Source: Acidimicrobiales bacterium (GTDB lineage Bacteria; Actinomycetota; Acidimicrobiia; Acidimicrobiales; MedAcidi-G1). Taken from it: 64,000 bases of DNA. This document shows, piece after piece, positions 20,325 to 25,779 of the stretch. Within the stretch, counting starts at the first letter, position 1; each line of letters opens with the position of its first letter. Made by a program: the position numbers and the translations under genes. The notes under the pieces are model-generated. The model searched no databases, had not been told where the DNA came from, and was given only the letters and a program-made list of their open reading frames with translations. The stretch covers positions 1 to 64,000 of the forward strand of contig JAKURV010000011.1 of the NCBI GenBank assembly GCA_022452035.1, written 5' to 3'.

Positions 20325-23300
20325 TCAGCCGTTGGTCAGGACTCCGAGCCGCCGGGCCACCCGCTCGGCCTCCACCCGCTCGCTGATCACCCTCGACGAC
20401 CCGCCGGGAGCCATCGATACGCCGTAGAGGCAGTCGGCGGCCTCCATGGTCCGCTTCTGGTGACTGACGATCATCAGCTGGGCGTGGTCTCGGAACTGGT
20501 CGACCAGGCCCAGGAACCGGTGCAGGTTGACGTCGTCGAGGGCCGCCTCCACCTCGTCCATGACGTAGAACGGCGAAGGACGACTGCGGAACACGGCGAA
20601 CAGGAAGGCCAGGGCGGTTAGTGACCGCTCGCCGCCGGACAGCAGCGAGAGCTTCTTAACGTTCTTGCCCGAGGGTCGCGCCTCCACGTCGAGACCCGTC
20701 TCCAGTAGGTCGTCGGGATCGGTGAGGCGCAGCTGCCCCTCACCACCAGGGAAGAGGGCATCGAACAGGTCGGTGAAGTGGCTTGACACCTCGGCGAAGG
20801 CAGCAGCGAACACCGACACAATCTCTTCGTCCACCGACCGAATGACCTTCCTCAGGTCCTTACGGGTGGAACGGATGTCGTCCAACTGCTCTTGGAGGAA
20901 CTCATGGCGCTCCCGGAGACCGTCAAACTCAGCCAAAGCCAGCGGGTTAACCGGTCCCATCAACTTCAGCTCGCGCTCTAGGTCGGCTATCCGGTTGGCC
21001 GCCGTTACCCCCTCGTCCAGTTCGGGGCACGGAGCATCCAGGGCGGCGTCGGGCTCCAGGTCGAACTCGGCGCGGATCGACTCGGTCAGGCTCTCAAGGC
21101 GCAAACGTGTCTCAGCCCGCTCGATCTCCAGCCTCGACTGGTGCTCACGGGCCTCCCGGAGGACGGTCTCGGCAGTCGAGCGCTCGCGACGCAGGCCGTC
21201 CAGGCGGGCGGCCACGGCCCGAACCCGCTCGGATTGCTGGCGCCGGTGATCACGCAGGGCATCCAACCGGGTATCGACCATCGACAGGCGCTCATCCAAC
21301 GCCGCTGTGAGTTCACGGGTAGCGGCCTCCCGCCCGTCTAGGTCACCGCGCTGGGCAGCGGCAGCGGCCCGCTCGTCGGCCAACTGGCCCAACCGTGACC
21401 TCAGGTCGGTAGCCCGAGCCCGAACCACGGTCTGGCGACCGGTGGCCTCGGCGACCCGAACGTCGTGGCCGGTTCGTCGGGCACCCAGCTCGGCGGCCCG
21501 CTCCTCCAGTGAACTCCGGGCAGCGTTCATCCGGTGTCCTGCCTCCACGGACGCCTCCTCGACCGCCTCCAGACCGGGCAGGCGCCGCTCCAAGTCGTCG
21601 ACCCTCCGGGCCTCGTCTTCCAGGCGCTGGCCCAACTCGCCCAGGCGGGTCCGCAGCGACTCCGCCTCGGTAGTCAGGTCACGACGTTCGACCTGCAGCC
21701 GCTGGAGCGCCTCGGTCGACGCCGTGAACCGGCCGTCATGCTCGTCCAGGGCCCGGTTCCGACGGGCCACCTCGTCGTCGGCGTCGCCCGTCGCCCGCTC
21801 GGCCACGTCCAGGGCCCGGGTGGCCTCGCCCCGCTCGACCTCGGCATCGGCCAGCCGGCGCTCGGCATCGGCCAGCGCTGCGCCGGTCGCTCCCCGCCCG
21901 TCCCCACCGATCCGCCAGCCCGACGGGCCGAAACGGTCACCGGCCAGGGTGACGATGATGGACTCCGGGTAGCTCAGGGCCAGATCGACCACGGCGTCAA
22001 GATCGCCGTCGACGACCACGGCGTGGCCAAGCAAGCGGTCTAGGAGACCGTCGACGCCCTCCCGTCGGGCCCGGACCCGGGACCGGATGGGCGACCCCAC
22101 CGGCGGAGAAGAACAACCGCTCGAGCCGGCGTCCAGAGCCAGCACAGCCGCCGAGAGCCGACCTTCGCGCAGGGCGGTCAGGGCGTGTCGAGCCTGGCCG
22201 ACGTCGCCGACCACCACAGCGTCCAGCGCCGAACCCGCCGCTGCCTCGAAGGCCGCCTCGAAGCCATCGTCCACCTCGACCAGGTCCAGCAGCGTCCCCA
22301 ACACGCCTTCGATGCCGGCCAAGTGCTCGGCGCCGGCCCGTGACCGGGCCTCGTTCAGGGCCAGGGACAGGGCATCCACCCGGGCTGTCACCGACTGGAC
22401 TTCAGCCTCGGCGGCCATGACCCGTTCCCAAGCCGCGTTCCGGGCCACGGCGGCCCCGTGGGCCCGGGACTCGGACTCGGCCACGGCCTCCACCAGGGGC
22501 TCTTCGGCTGTCTCTCCCACCGACAGTTCAGAGCGTAAGCAATCGGCCTCGGCGTCCAGGCGAGTCGATGCCTCCTCCAACCCGCCCAGTCGAATGCCTA
22601 GGCGCTCACGCTCCGAGGTGGCCTGGGCAACGGCGGCCCTCAGGACGCCGAGCTCGCCACGAGCCTCGGCGGCGTGACCGCCCAGGGCCGGCACGCCTTC
22701 CGACCAGTCCATCTCGAAGGCCGCCCGATCGGCGGCCAGCTCGGTCTCGGCCACGGCCAAGCGCTCGGCCTCCGGTGCCAGGCGGTCGGCCTCAGCGTCC
22801 AATTCGGCGGCCTCGGCCTCGGCCCGCTCCAACTCCACCTCCAAGCCCACGACTACCTGCTGGGAGGCCAGAGACGACCGCTCCCGCTCAATGCCCCGGA
22901 GCCGTTCGACCAGAAGGGCCCTGAGACCCCGACCTCGCTCCCGCAGGGACTCCAGCCGCACCAGCCGGTCGCCCAGGTCGTCGCCTCCCCTGGCAGCCAA
23001 CTCGGTCTCGGCCGCCGCGACCTCGGCGTCCACTCGGGCCAGCACCCCACCCTGGGTCGACTCATCGGCAGCCAGCGTGGAGCGCCGCCCAGCCTCGTCC
23101 CGGGCCCTGGTCTGGAGGGTGTCCAGCTCCCGTCCCGCCCGGTGGAGGCGCAAAGCGGTCAACTCGCCCAGCAGGTCGCCGTGCCGGCGGGCAGCATCGG
23201 CCTGACGTTCCAGCGGACGGAGCTGTCGGCGGACCTCGCGCAGCAGGTCAGACAGCCGGTCCAGGTTGGTTTCGGTGGCCCGCAACCGCCGCTGAGCCTT

Positions 23301-23825
23301 CTCCTTACGGCGCCGGTATTTCAGGATCCCGGCCGCGTCCTCGATGATCATCCGCCGGTCCTCCGGACGGGCGTTCAGTACGGCGTCGATCTGGCCCTGG
23401 GAGATGATGACGTGCTGTTGGCGGCCGACCCCCACGTCGGACAGCAGTTCCTGGATGTCCAGCAGGCGGCAGGGCGCGCCGTTCATCGAGTACTCGCTAT
23501 CACCGCTTCGGAACAGGGTCCGGGTGATGGTCACTTCCGCAAACTCCACCGGGAGCTGGCCCAACGAGTTGTCGATGGTCAACGAGACCTCAGCCCGACC
23601 CAGGGCAGCCCTGGTGGACGTGCCAGCAAAGATGACATCGTCCATCTTCTGGGATCGCACGGCGCTCGGCGCCTGGGCGCCCAGCACCCACGCGATGGCG
23701 TCCACCACGTTGGACTTTCCACTGCCGTTGGGCCCTACGACCACCGTGACACCGGGCTCCATCTCCAGGGTCGCCGTGTCAGCGAACGACTTGAAGCCCT
23801 TGATGGTCAGCTGTTTCAGGAACAC
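20325..23825 (-). CDS. smc: Chromosome segregation protein SMC
   Basis: Condensin-type ATPase that compacts and segregates chromosomes with ScpA/ScpB (not in this window). 1166 residues: Walker A GPNGSGKSN near the N-terminus with KQLTIKGFKSFAD, long coiled coil, hinge around 500-640 (EGVLGTLLDLVEVDDGFE...), second coiled coil, and C-terminal head with LSGGERSLTALAFLFA (signature) and YVMDEVEAALDDVN (Walker B). The GTG start gives (M)FLKQLTIKGF; upstream residues are not conserved. Preceded by the degenerate fpg gene. Confidence 0.97.
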   Translation of the reverse strand: MFLKQLTIKGFKSFADTATLEMEPGVTVVVGPNGSGKSNVVDAIAWVLGAQAPSAVRSQKMDDVIFAGTSTRAALGRAEVSLTIDNSLGQLPVEFAEVTITRTLFRSGDSEYSMNGAPCRLLDIQELLSDVGVGRQQHVIISQGQIDAVLNARPEDRRMIIEDAAGILKYRRRKEKAQRRLRATETNLDRLSDLLREVRRQLRPLERQADAARRHGDLLGELTALRLHRAGRELDTLQTRARDEAGRRSTLAADESTQGGVLARVDAEVAAAETELAARGGDDLGDRLVRLESLRERGRGLRALLVERLRGIERERSSLASQQVVVGLEVELERAEAEAAELDAEADRLAPEAERLAVAETELAADRAAFEMDWSEGVPALGGHAAEARGELGVLRAAVAQATSERERLGIRLGGLEEASTRLDAEADCLRSELSVGETAEEPLVEAVAESESRAHGAAVARNAAWERVMAAEAEVQSVTARVDALSLALNEARSRAGAEHLAGIEGVLGTLLDLVEVDDGFEAAFEAAAGSALDAVVVGDVGQARHALTALREGRLSAAVLALDAGSSGCSSPPVGSPIRSRVRARREGVDGLLDRLLGHAVVVDGDLDAVVDLALSYPESIIVTLAGDRFGPSGWRIGGDGRGATGAALADAERRLADAEVERGEATRALDVAERATGDADDEVARRNRALDEHDGRFTASTEALQRLQVERRDLTTEAESLRTRLGELGQRLEDEARRVDDLERRLPGLEAVEEASVEAGHRMNAARSSLEERAAELGARRTGHDVRVAEATGRQTVVRARATDLRSRLGQLADERAAAAAQRGDLDGREAATRELTAALDERLSMVDTRLDALRDHRRQQSERVRAVAARLDGLRRERSTAETVLREAREHQSRLEIERAETRLRLESLTESIRAEFDLEPDAALDAPCPELDEGVTAANRIADLERELKLMGPVNPLALAEFDGLRERHEFLQEQLDDIRSTRKDLRKVIRSVDEEIVSVFAAAFAEVSSHFTDLFDALFPGGEGQLRLTDPDDLLETGLDVEARPSGKNVKKLSLLSGGERSLTALAFLFAVFRSRPSPFYVMDEVEAALDDVNLHRFLGLVDQFRDHAQLMIVSHQKRTMEAADCLYGVSMAPGGSSRVISERVEAERVARRLGVLTNG

Positions 23826-23919
23826 GCAGGACCCCGCGCGCCGCCCGCCCAAATCACAGGGGTGTCATTCGCCATTCACGCCACCCTAGGCGCGCCAAAG
23901 GCGCCCGAGGGGCGCTCCG

Positions 23920-24759
23920 TCAGACCTGGGTCTCGCAGAAGTAAGTCCAGCTTCCCTTGAGCTTGATTCGCTGGATGGCTGACCGGTTGCGCTGGCTGAG
24001 CGCACCCGCCCGGCCGTAAACCGCCAAGTGGTCGCCGTAGGTCCCCGGCTCGCCGTACAGGTCGACGAACGGACGCTCTTCGAGGTCAGTCCCTCGGTAC
24101 TTGATGGCATCGTTGACCACCGAGATCATCGCCCCATGGAGGCGCCGGACCTCCTGGGTGGAAAGGGTGTTGCTGATCCGGTCGTAGCGCAGTCCGGCGT
24201 GGAACAGGATCTCGTCGGAGTAAACGTCGCCGATGCCCACCACCACCGTGTCGTCGCACAGGAGATCCTTGAGCGGTACCTCCCTAGCCAGGACCTGTCC
24301 TCCGAACATCGTCCACGGAACCATCTCGCCGGCCGGATCGATGCCCAGCGTGGCCAGGTCTGGGAACTCAGTGAGCAGCTGGTCGCCGGACACCACGCAC
24401 ACCTCCGAGGTGCCGCCGGGGTCGATCAGGCGGACCTGACCGCCCACCGTGAAAGTGAAGGTCATCTCGGTGCCGGGTGCCTTCGCGTCCCGGGCGGCGT
24501 GCCGCCGAATACTGGAGCCGGCGCCCGGGCGGATGACCAGTAGGTCGTCTTCCATCTTGATGACCAGGGTGAGTCCGATCCGGCGGACCGGGCCCAACTT
24601 GCAGCCCTCCACCGTTCCGGCGAACGATCGGCGGGTGCGGTACCGGGCCAGGGTGGCCATCGAGGCGACCTCCACCGTCTTCACCTTGCGGCCGGAAATC
24701 TCCCGGTCCAGGGCGTAGCGGATGATCTCTACCTCGGGTAGTTCGTGTTCGAGAGTCAC
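23920..24759 (-). CDS. Fpg/MutM-fold protein lacking catalytic and zinc-finger residues
   Basis: Clearly homologous to formamidopyrimidine-DNA glycosylase: N-terminal ELPEVEIIRYALDR, an intact helix-two-turn-helix (GIGDVYSDEILFHAGLRYD, about 185-203) and family-like ending. Yet the nucleophile Pro2 is absent (GTG-T-L-E-H before ELPEVE), the catalytic hairpin Lys is missing (RRIGLTLVI), HLGMSG is replaced by RPGAGS, DPRTFGE by DPGGTSE, and the C-terminal zinc finger keeps only one Cys (YFCETQV). The 279-residue frame is intact. The GTG overlaps the rnc stop (GTGA), so no alternative MPELPEVE start exists. Likely a non-glycosylase DNA-binding derivative; a zincless glycosylase is less likely. 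Confidence 0.85.
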   Translation of the reverse strand: MTLEHELPEVEIIRYALDREISGRKVKTVEVASMATLARYRTRRSFAGTVEGCKLGPVRRIGLTLVIKMEDDLLVIRPGAGSSIRRHAARDAKAPGTEMTFTFTVGGQVRLIDPGGTSEVCVVSGDQLLTEFPDLATLGIDPAGEMVPWTMFGGQVLAREVPLKDLLCDDTVVVGIGDVYSDEILFHAGLRYDRISNTLSTQEVRRLHGAMISVVNDAIKYRGTDLEERPFVDLYGEPGTYGDHLAVYGRAGALSQRNRSAIQRIKLKGSWTYFCETQV

Positions 24760-25511
24760 GTTGATTCCTGACCTGTCGTCGGAGTCCCAGCCTCAACCGG
24801 GGATGGGTGTTCAAGGGCGTCCCAGGCCAACTGGGCCGCCTCCTGCTCGGCCCGCTTGCGCGACGTGCCGGTTGCCGGGCCGTACGAACGCCCGGCCACC
24901 TCGACCACAGCGTGGAACCGCTTGTCGTGGTCCGGACCGTCGTCGGTCAGCACATAGCGCGGCGGCGGGTCGGATCGGCGGGCGGCCAACTCCTGGAGGC
25001 GCGTCTTGAAGTCGTGGAGGCCCGGATCGACCGCCGAGTCGGCCAGCACGTCGGCGAACAGCCGGTCCACGACCGTCCTCACGGCCGCCGGCCCACCGTC
25101 TAGGTAGACAGCGGCGACCACAGCCTCCAGGGCATCGGCCAAGATCGAGTCCTTGTCGCTCCCACCGGTCGATGACTCGCCCCGACCTAGGCGGAGTGCC
25201 TCACCCAACGGGATCGACCGGGCCACGTCGGCCAACGCCGGGGTGCTCACTACGGCGGCCCGGATCAGAGCCAGTTGGCCCTCGGGCAGCCCAGGATGGT
25301 CGCGGTAGACACGTTCAGCGACCGCAAACCCCAGCACAGCGTCACCCAAGAACTCCAGCCGCTCGTTGGAGGAGGCCTCGTGCTCGGCACACCACGACCG
25401 GTGGGTCAGGGCGATCTCCAGTAGGTCCGGATCACCGAACCGGTGGCCAAGACCGTCCTCGAGGGCTTCCGAAACGACGGACCGCGGGTCAGCCGAGACG
25501 GGAGACGACAT
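24756..25511 (-). CDS. rnc: Ribonuclease III
   Basis: Double-strand-specific endonuclease for rRNA and mRNA processing. Catalytic domain with the signature NERLEFLGDAVLG and the second acidic cluster DALEAVVAAVYLDGG; C-terminal dsRNA-binding domain (DFKTRLQELAARR ... GTSRKRAEQEAAQLAWDAL). About 251 residues with a Pro/Thr-rich tail. I chose the ATG at 25511, which overlaps acpP by 23 bases; a slightly longer ATG start (25523) cannot be excluded. The acpP-rnc-fpg-smc order is usual in Actinobacteria. Confidence 0.95.
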   Translation of the reverse strand: MSSPVSADPRSVVSEALEDGLGHRFGDPDLLEIALTHRSWCAEHEASSNERLEFLGDAVLGFAVAERVYRDHPGLPEGQLALIRAAVVSTPALADVARSIPLGEALRLGRGESSTGGSDKDSILADALEAVVAAVYLDGGPAAVRTVVDRLFADVLADSAVDPGLHDFKTRLQELAARRSDPPPRYVLTDDGPDHDKRFHAVVEVAGRSYGPATGTSRKRAEQEAAQLAWDALEHPSPVEAGTPTTGQEST

Positions 25512-25779
25512 AGTCGACGGCATCGCGGACTGTCTTGAGGTCCTCGAGGTCATCGTCCTCGATCCGGAAGCCGGCAGAACGCTCGCTGAGTTCCTCCTCC
25601 AGGGCCTCCACCAACTCGATAAGGGCCAGCGAGTCGGCGTCGAGGTCGTCGGCGAACGAGTTGCCCTCGCCGATCTCGGACGGCTCGATCTCCAGGATGT
25701 CGGCGAGACGGTCGCGGATCAGTTCCAGGACCTCGTCGCGCCCGATCGGGACGCCCTCGACATGGGTTTCTGCGGGCAC
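25489..25779 (-). CDS. acpP: Acyl carrier protein
   Basis: Carries acyl chains on 4'-phosphopantetheine during fatty acid synthesis. 96 residues with the attachment motif DLDADSLALIELVEALEEEL (Ser in DSL) and an acidic helical bundle; the loop before the last helix (SERSAGFRIEDDDLEDLKT) is a few residues longer than usual. GTG start with GAGGAG 5 bases upstream. It lies between plsX and rnc, linking phospholipid and fatty acid synthesis. Confidence 0.95.
   Translation of the reverse strand: MPAETHVEGVPIGRDEVLELIRDRLADILEIEPSEIGEGNSFADDLDADSLALIELVEALEEELSERSAGFRIEDDDLEDLKTVRDAVDYVVSRLG

Follow-up and report, generated by a model that had tools for sequence, protein, structure and literature searches.

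A MutM homologue without its catalytic residues, probably a conserved pseudoenzyme, beside rnc in Acidimicrobiales

Introduction

The gene found between rnc and smc in the window (the whole stretch of 64,000 nucleotides of Acidimicrobiales DNA that was analysed) raises a simple question: why should a bacterium keep, at full length, a homologue of the repair glycosylase MutM (Fpg) in which the residues for catalysis, lesion probing and zinc binding have been replaced? The features concerned are the following.

20325 to 23852, minus strand: smc, downstream neighbour of the MutM homologue
23920 to 24759, minus strand: rnc-linked MutM/Fpg homologue (here the "dead" gene) without catalytic, lesion-probing and zinc residues, 279 amino acids, GTG start
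23923 to 24030, minus strand: former zinc-finger hairpin, about residues 244–279, with a single zinc Cys remaining and a C-terminus ending in C-E-T-Q-V
24088 to 24348, minus strand: H2TH domain, residues 138–224, the best-kept part, with Asn168 replaced by Asp
24415 to 24744, minus strand: MutM N-terminal domain, about residues 6–115, with Pro2, Lys57, HLGMSG and DPRTFGE replaced and Glu3 and Glu6 kept
24756 to 25553, minus strand: rnc (RNase III), upstream neighbour, whose end overlaps the GTG of the MutM homologue by 4 bases

Results and Discussion

The MutM homologue of the window

The original prediction had described an intact frame with an Fpg/MutM fold and a kept H2TH region, and this is what was found. 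The 279-residue protein has the two-domain architecture of MutM/Fpg, with the Fpg N-terminal domain (PF01149, Fapy_DNA_glyco, 43.9 bits) and the H2TH domain (PF06831, 58.5 bits) both above the Pfam cut-off, and the solved structure that it matches best is that of a MutM chain, over residues 6–276 (phmmer, E 2.8e-30). The curated NCBIfam fpg models gave 149.7 and 140.6 bits, both below the cut-offs (212 and 203.3, respectively) that mark a MutM/Fpg equivalog. The AlphaFold prediction with the window protein and ten close relatives was poor (mean pLDDT 45.6), and no structural support is drawn from it.

Residue columns were defined on a canonical rnc-linked MutM of the same class (L029), and the E. 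coli-style residue numbers are taken here as labels only. Against this reference, Lys57 (Leu63 in the window protein), His70, the Met-Arg-Phe wedge and Asn168 are all replaced: HLGMSG has become RPGAGS, DPRTFGE has become DPGGTSE, Asn168 is Asp and Arg258 is Ser. Among the zinc cysteines the first is Ser, the second Asn and the fourth deleted, leaving only the third. The place of Pro2 is taken by His5, with four residues ahead of it, and the N-terminal proline nucleophile is absent; it cannot be recovered by the choice of start, since TLEH precedes ELPEVE whichever start is chosen. The set of replacements listed in the original prediction (Pro2, the Lys, HLGMSG, DPRTFGE and three of the four zinc cysteines) matches this alignment, and its exclusion of a missed MPELPEVE start is borne out by the TLEH. 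Beyond what the original prediction lists, both histidines of the HTH motif seen in canonical copies have been lost, and so have positions 224, 228, 230 and 231, which presumably form the lesion-capping loop. The window protein shares with the canonical rnc-linked MutM its place, its architecture and its H2TH, at about 40–46% identity, and differs from it in lacking Pro2, Lys57, His70, Met74, Arg109, Phe111, Asn168 and three zinc cysteines; Glu3 and Glu6 are retained as in the canonical orthologues.

Distribution in the order

Ten relatives at 72–98% identity, from assemblies titled Acidimicrobiales, Acidimicrobiaceae, Acidimicrobiia or Candidatus Microthrix, were all devoid of Lys57, of the HLGMSG and DPRTFGE residues and of the zinc set; in other families of the class and the order the gene at the same place was canonical. 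We surveyed 108 genomes of the order (requested completeness ≥90%), 107 of which had a readable copy; the other (G296) gave no match at 1e-25. Classed on five core residues (Lys57, His70, Met74, Arg109 and Phe111), the rnc-linked gene was canonical, with all five, in 60 genomes and dead in 45, 39 of these copies keeping none of the five and six keeping one. One copy with two core residues (L175, genome G266) is long-branched, rnc was not found beside it, and it was set aside. Another (G245; L265, gene at 1043–1876) is partly stripped: Pro2, Lys57, His70, Arg109 and the zinc cysteines remain, that is three core residues, and the Met and Phe of the wedge, Asn168 and Arg258 are lost; its placement in the tree is unsure, and it is possibly a transitional or a separate case. 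The canonical rnc-linked copy of G149 (L089) is split over two frames with one stop, which is due to a genuine break or to faulty assembly. A scan of viral contigs (viral_contigs) found no relative of the window protein.

The gene order rnc-mutM-smc is widespread. Of the 45 dead loci, 44 have rnc upstream and 43 have smc downstream, the loci where one or the other was not seen lying at a contig start or having about 1 kb of flank. The original prediction suggested a job linked to RNase III or SMC, and this arrangement would agree with a partner of either, acting in RNA processing or chromosome organisation. However, 58 of the 59 canonical loci compared, a set that does not include G308, have rnc upstream as well, and 40 of the 59 have smc downstream, many loci having only about 1 kb of flank. 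The position is hence ancestral and gene order gives no evidence for such a link, which we regard as unlikely.

Phylogeny and order of the losses

Trees were computed without the catalytic columns. Loci present twice, L175 and rows with fewer than 200 aligned residues were excluded, and the canonical rows and those of the window's family (f1) were thinned in later trees and comparisons. A single clade, placed inside the canonical orthologues, takes in 74 dead sequences of 19 families, with an SH-aLRT support of 90 in a quick tree, 100/96 in a careful tree with 53 dead rows and 94/92 with 25 rows. Its first branch is family f77. Throughout this main clade Met74 and Phe111 are never kept, Lys57 and Arg109 are kept in one sequence each, Asn168 in three and His70 in four, although the five core residues among these also served to define the class. 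On the other hand, Lys155 is Lys or Arg in all 74, Tyr180 and Glu183 are kept, Glu6 is present in 73 of 73 readable sequences and Glu3 in 65 of 73 (Ala in L023, L081 and L086, another residue in five more rows). Pro2 is still there in 10 of the 73 readable sequences, and within the clade the careful tree requires at least five changes of state for Pro2 and at least four for the four-cysteine set. We infer that the first losses from the rnc-linked copy, in the common ancestor of at least 19 families, would have been those of the lesion wedge, of the phosphate grip and of Lys57, and that the nucleophile and the zinc cysteines would have changed later, several times.

Family f5 mixes dead copies (G055, G102, G106 and G118) and copies that by eye are canonical (G047, G063, G067, G099, G126, G130, G141 and G165). 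One of the dead f5 copies nests with the canonical ones with a support of 100/99, and a family-specific insertion after the DPRTFGE loop was seen by eye in dead and canonical copies alike (e.g., L195–L202, L211 and L212). Under the AU test, one common loss behind every dead copy remained compatible with the data (p 0.198). Because of the nesting and of the common insertion, a separate event is favoured, and f5 has probably lost the residues independently of the main dead clade.

The 19 canonical families compared have 107 near-invariant positions. For 34 of these, at most nine of the 19 dead families keep the residue, and many of the 34 belong to Pro2, Lys57, HLGMSG, the HTH histidines, PRTFGE, Asn168, the stretch 224–231 and the zinc finger. 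The positions near-invariant in both groups are 33, and 19 of these fall at residues 131–232, around the H2TH domain. The mean pairwise identity between dead families was 0.39 in the N-terminal domain, 0.51 in the linker and H2TH and 0.45 in the last part, versus 0.63, 0.68 and 0.61 between canonical families. We also looked for a new conserved surface in the dead clade and dropped it, only four positions being tighter than in the canonical group (19 family representatives each).

Loss of activity

Published mutants of this superfamily help to judge what these replacements would do. In E. coli Fpg the change N168D is described as very damaging, and mutants of Asn168, Arg258 and Arg108 lost catalysis with a KM that, where measurable, was hardly altered (PMC4737139), so binding can outlive catalysis. 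For mycobacterial Nei2, PMC11323726 reports that P2A abolishes the AP lyase and retains 5-hydroxyuracil glycosylase activity, that the equivalent of Lys57 is required for both activities and that K51A and E3A each abolish the glycosylase; it also mentions that NEIL3, for which a scaffold role was suggested, has Val at the place of Pro2. By making Pro2 the nucleophile in every active Fpg/Nei enzyme, the original prediction thus went too far. NEIL3 and Nei2 P2A resemble the window protein in lacking Pro2, but Nei2 has its essential lysine and the window protein lacks both Lys57 and the wedge. It is the joint loss of these two, in the light of the Fpg and Nei2 mutants, that gives the strongest reason for considering the protein inactive, a call that is made from sequence.

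An alternative is that the protein is still an enzyme, a glycosylase, lyase or hydrolase of altered chemistry that would act on another substrate through Glu3 and Glu6 and the kept floor of the pocket. The conservation of both glutamates, Tyr180 and Glu183 would fit, as would the glycosylase activity left in Nei2 P2A. However, Lys57 is gone in 73 of 74 sequences, Glu3, whose replacement silenced the Nei2 glycosylase, is itself replaced in the eight rows mentioned above, and no new invariant polar cluster was found in the dead clade. We consider this alternative very unlikely.

A second MutM in the same genomes

Three genes of the Fpg family are present in the genome of the window (2.18 Mb, 96% complete): the window gene and one each on contigs C10 and C17. 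The C10 gene (L001) is a canonical MutM with every catalytic residue and the four cysteines, and it scores above two general fpg cut-offs (246.6 versus 212 and 232.8 versus 203.3), so that the second, canonical mutM that the original prediction had proposed to look for is present. This canonical-looking gene (L001:185-1003) adjoins an opposite-strand gene that reads as ParA-like. The C17 gene (L005:1498-2277) is of another Fpg/Nei type, beginning PEILEVEAYRR, with DPRRLGG and with Asp and His at two of the zinc-Cys places; it is above none of the NCBIfam cut-offs shown, and genes like it were seen in several more genomes across the order.

Of the 45 dead-gene genomes, 39 have a C10-type MutM (E ≤ 1e-40), versus none of the 60 canonical ones, an association that reflects few evolutionary events and for which no p-value is warranted. 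A fortieth match, in G138, is the canonical rnc-linked gene of that genome and was not counted. Of the 39 copies, 22 were read: 19 were inspected by residue, with all catalytic columns canonical, and three more (L183–L185) looked canonical. The family scan gave at least two Fpg-domain matches in all 45 dead-gene genomes and a single match in 18 of the 60 canonical ones; other canonical genomes often have extra family members too, counted here irrespective of type.

The dead-gene genomes without the C10 type are G055, G169, G210, G251, G273 and G299. In the two from f77 (G273 and G299; L177 and L180), where the rnc-linked copy is dead, there is another MutM-like gene starting PEAAEVAVA, which retains Lys57, HLRMSG, DPRTFGE and the cysteines and has Ser in place of Asn168. 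Two f5 genomes (G106 and G118) have yet another canonical-looking MutM, and in G055, G102, G169 and G210 only a C17-type gene was seen besides the dead one. G251 gave further matches to the Fpg family.

A sample of 245 other genomes of the phylum included 44 with relatives of the C10 type (E ≤ 1e-45), all outside the class and at no more than 55% identity; at seven of these loci, inspected with some 4 kb of flanking sequence (L226 had less), neither rnc nor smc was detected. This distribution fits an acquisition of the C10-type MutM from another class. The gain may have come after the loss in the rnc-linked copy and not have been its cause, a possibility left by the six dead-gene genomes without the C10 type and by the early-branching f77 with its other MutM-like gene.

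Selection and retention

The dN/dS values quoted here come only from hand-picked close pairs, the medians over all pairs not being meaningful with synonymous sites saturated. In 17 close pairs of dead copies (families f1, f7, f15, f75, f77 and f5) dN/dS ranged between 0.030 and 0.215, and in the neighbouring rnc of the same pairs between 0.031 and 0.413, the dead gene being lower in 14 of the 17; some pairs share a row, and L074/L075 and L092/L093 have a dS above 1.6. For the window gene the values were 0.098 against L009 and 0.057 against L010. Internal stops were absent from 44 of the 45 dead copies, the remaining one (G055) falling below the threshold of that search. By these measures the dead gene is kept about as strictly as the adjoining RNase III gene and is not in decay; with dead copies in 45 of 107 genomes of the order, it is no local oddity either. 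The stops, frameshifts and relaxed selection expected of a pseudogene are not seen in these copies and pairs, and the selection on the protein that the original prediction had suspected, despite the lost chemistry, is supported.

In the family of the window, f1, all 48 genomes have a match to the dead gene, which in three of them (G199, G218 and G225) consists of pieces only; the truncation may be real in G199 or G225. A C10-type MutM above 200 bits was found in 37 of the same 48. One genus of this family, g2 (G169 and G208–G214), has the dead gene in eight of eight genomes and the C10-type MutM in none, five of the eight being 72–85% complete. In the two g2 genomes that were read (G169 and G210), only the C17-type gene remains besides the dead one. 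Judged by these matches, f1 retains the dead gene no less firmly than the active-type MutM.

These figures bear on two further explanations. Slow decay, or the mere service of a spacer coupling rnc and smc, might be imagined for a gene that a canonical MutM elsewhere makes dispensable for repair and that is in pieces in three of 48 family genomes; against the rnc-like dN/dS, the lack of internal stops and the match in every f1 genome, it is extremely improbable. The protein could also regulate the active MutM or act as its decoy, or it could protect abasic sites as has been postulated for the non-catalytic Mag2 (PMC4433238), and the presence of a C10-type MutM alongside it in most dead-gene genomes would agree with this. 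However, the dead gene stays in all g2 genomes, where that MutM was not found, and the residues that would hold a lesion or an AP site (Lys57, the wedge and mostly Asn168) are gone, which makes such a role quite unlikely.

Probable function

We consider it probable that the window gene, which holds the mutM place in the order rnc-mutM-smc and is orthologous to MutM by position, has become a conserved pseudoenzyme, with a second MutM in charge of repair and a non-catalytic binding role left to the old copy. A canonical MutM of another lineage, here that of contig C10 and present in most of these genomes, would carry out the repair of 8-oxoG and FapyG and would free the rnc-linked copy, which would have been retained for binding by its H2TH body. 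The chemistry of MutM has thus probably moved to another gene, the displaced one being kept for a non-catalytic role.

It is the conservation of the H2TH body that argues for binding. Our leading guess would be a clamp-like protein that sits on a nucleic acid backbone or on a protein partner, neither flipping nor cutting. The median net charge is −2.5 in the dead proteins versus +7 in the canonical ones, and compared with the C10-type MutM of the same genome the dead protein was lower in 16 of 19 genomes, equal in one and higher in two. This loss of positive charge weakens the case for DNA binding and for a simple DNA clamp. Binding of nucleic acid is a serious possibility all the same, if short of an even one, and contact with another protein may be proposed a little more tentatively.

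Relation to known systems

The closest parallels appear to be the non-catalytic glycosylase relatives AlkD2 and Mag2. Mag2, AlkF and AlkG have other folds than MutM. AlkD2, a HEAT-repeat relative of AlkD, is kept beside an active relative, lacks a DNA-reading element and does not excise, as the window protein would; it differs in its unrelated fold and in that weak DNA binding was measured for it, while the window protein is known from its sequence (PMC4433238). The same paper describes Mag2 of fission yeast and AlkF/AlkG as non-catalytic glycosylase homologues that bind DNA. The combination that characterizes AlkD2 in sequence (a conserved protein, recognition and catalytic residues lost, a canonical homologue elsewhere in the genome) was found in the window's genome and in 38 others of the 45.

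Within the Fpg family, the M. tuberculosis form of mycobacterial Fpg2 (Rv0944) is likewise without the usual catalytic N terminus, but there it is truncated, and complete in other mycobacteria (PMC2734929), whereas here the protein is full length, substituted, and spread over 19 families. Our literature search, through titles and the openings of abstracts and with few subscription papers, found no full-length, clade-wide MutM free of its active site.

Implications

At one gene place there are canonical forms, a partly stripped one (G245) and fully stripped ones, which makes the locus a natural experiment in the conversion of a DNA glycosylase to a pseudoenzyme, and family f5 is a probable independent repeat of the stripping. 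It is also a warning for annotation by domain, as an rnc-linked gene with Fpg and H2TH domains need not provide 8-oxoG repair in these bacteria. More tentatively, the repair enzyme would have been displaced by a foreign MutM and the old copy made into a new non-enzymatic factor across 19 families, kept even where the replacing MutM is missing, with RNA, DNA or protein as its partner. The function for which it is kept, if found, would then be a new one for the MutM fold, outside repair.
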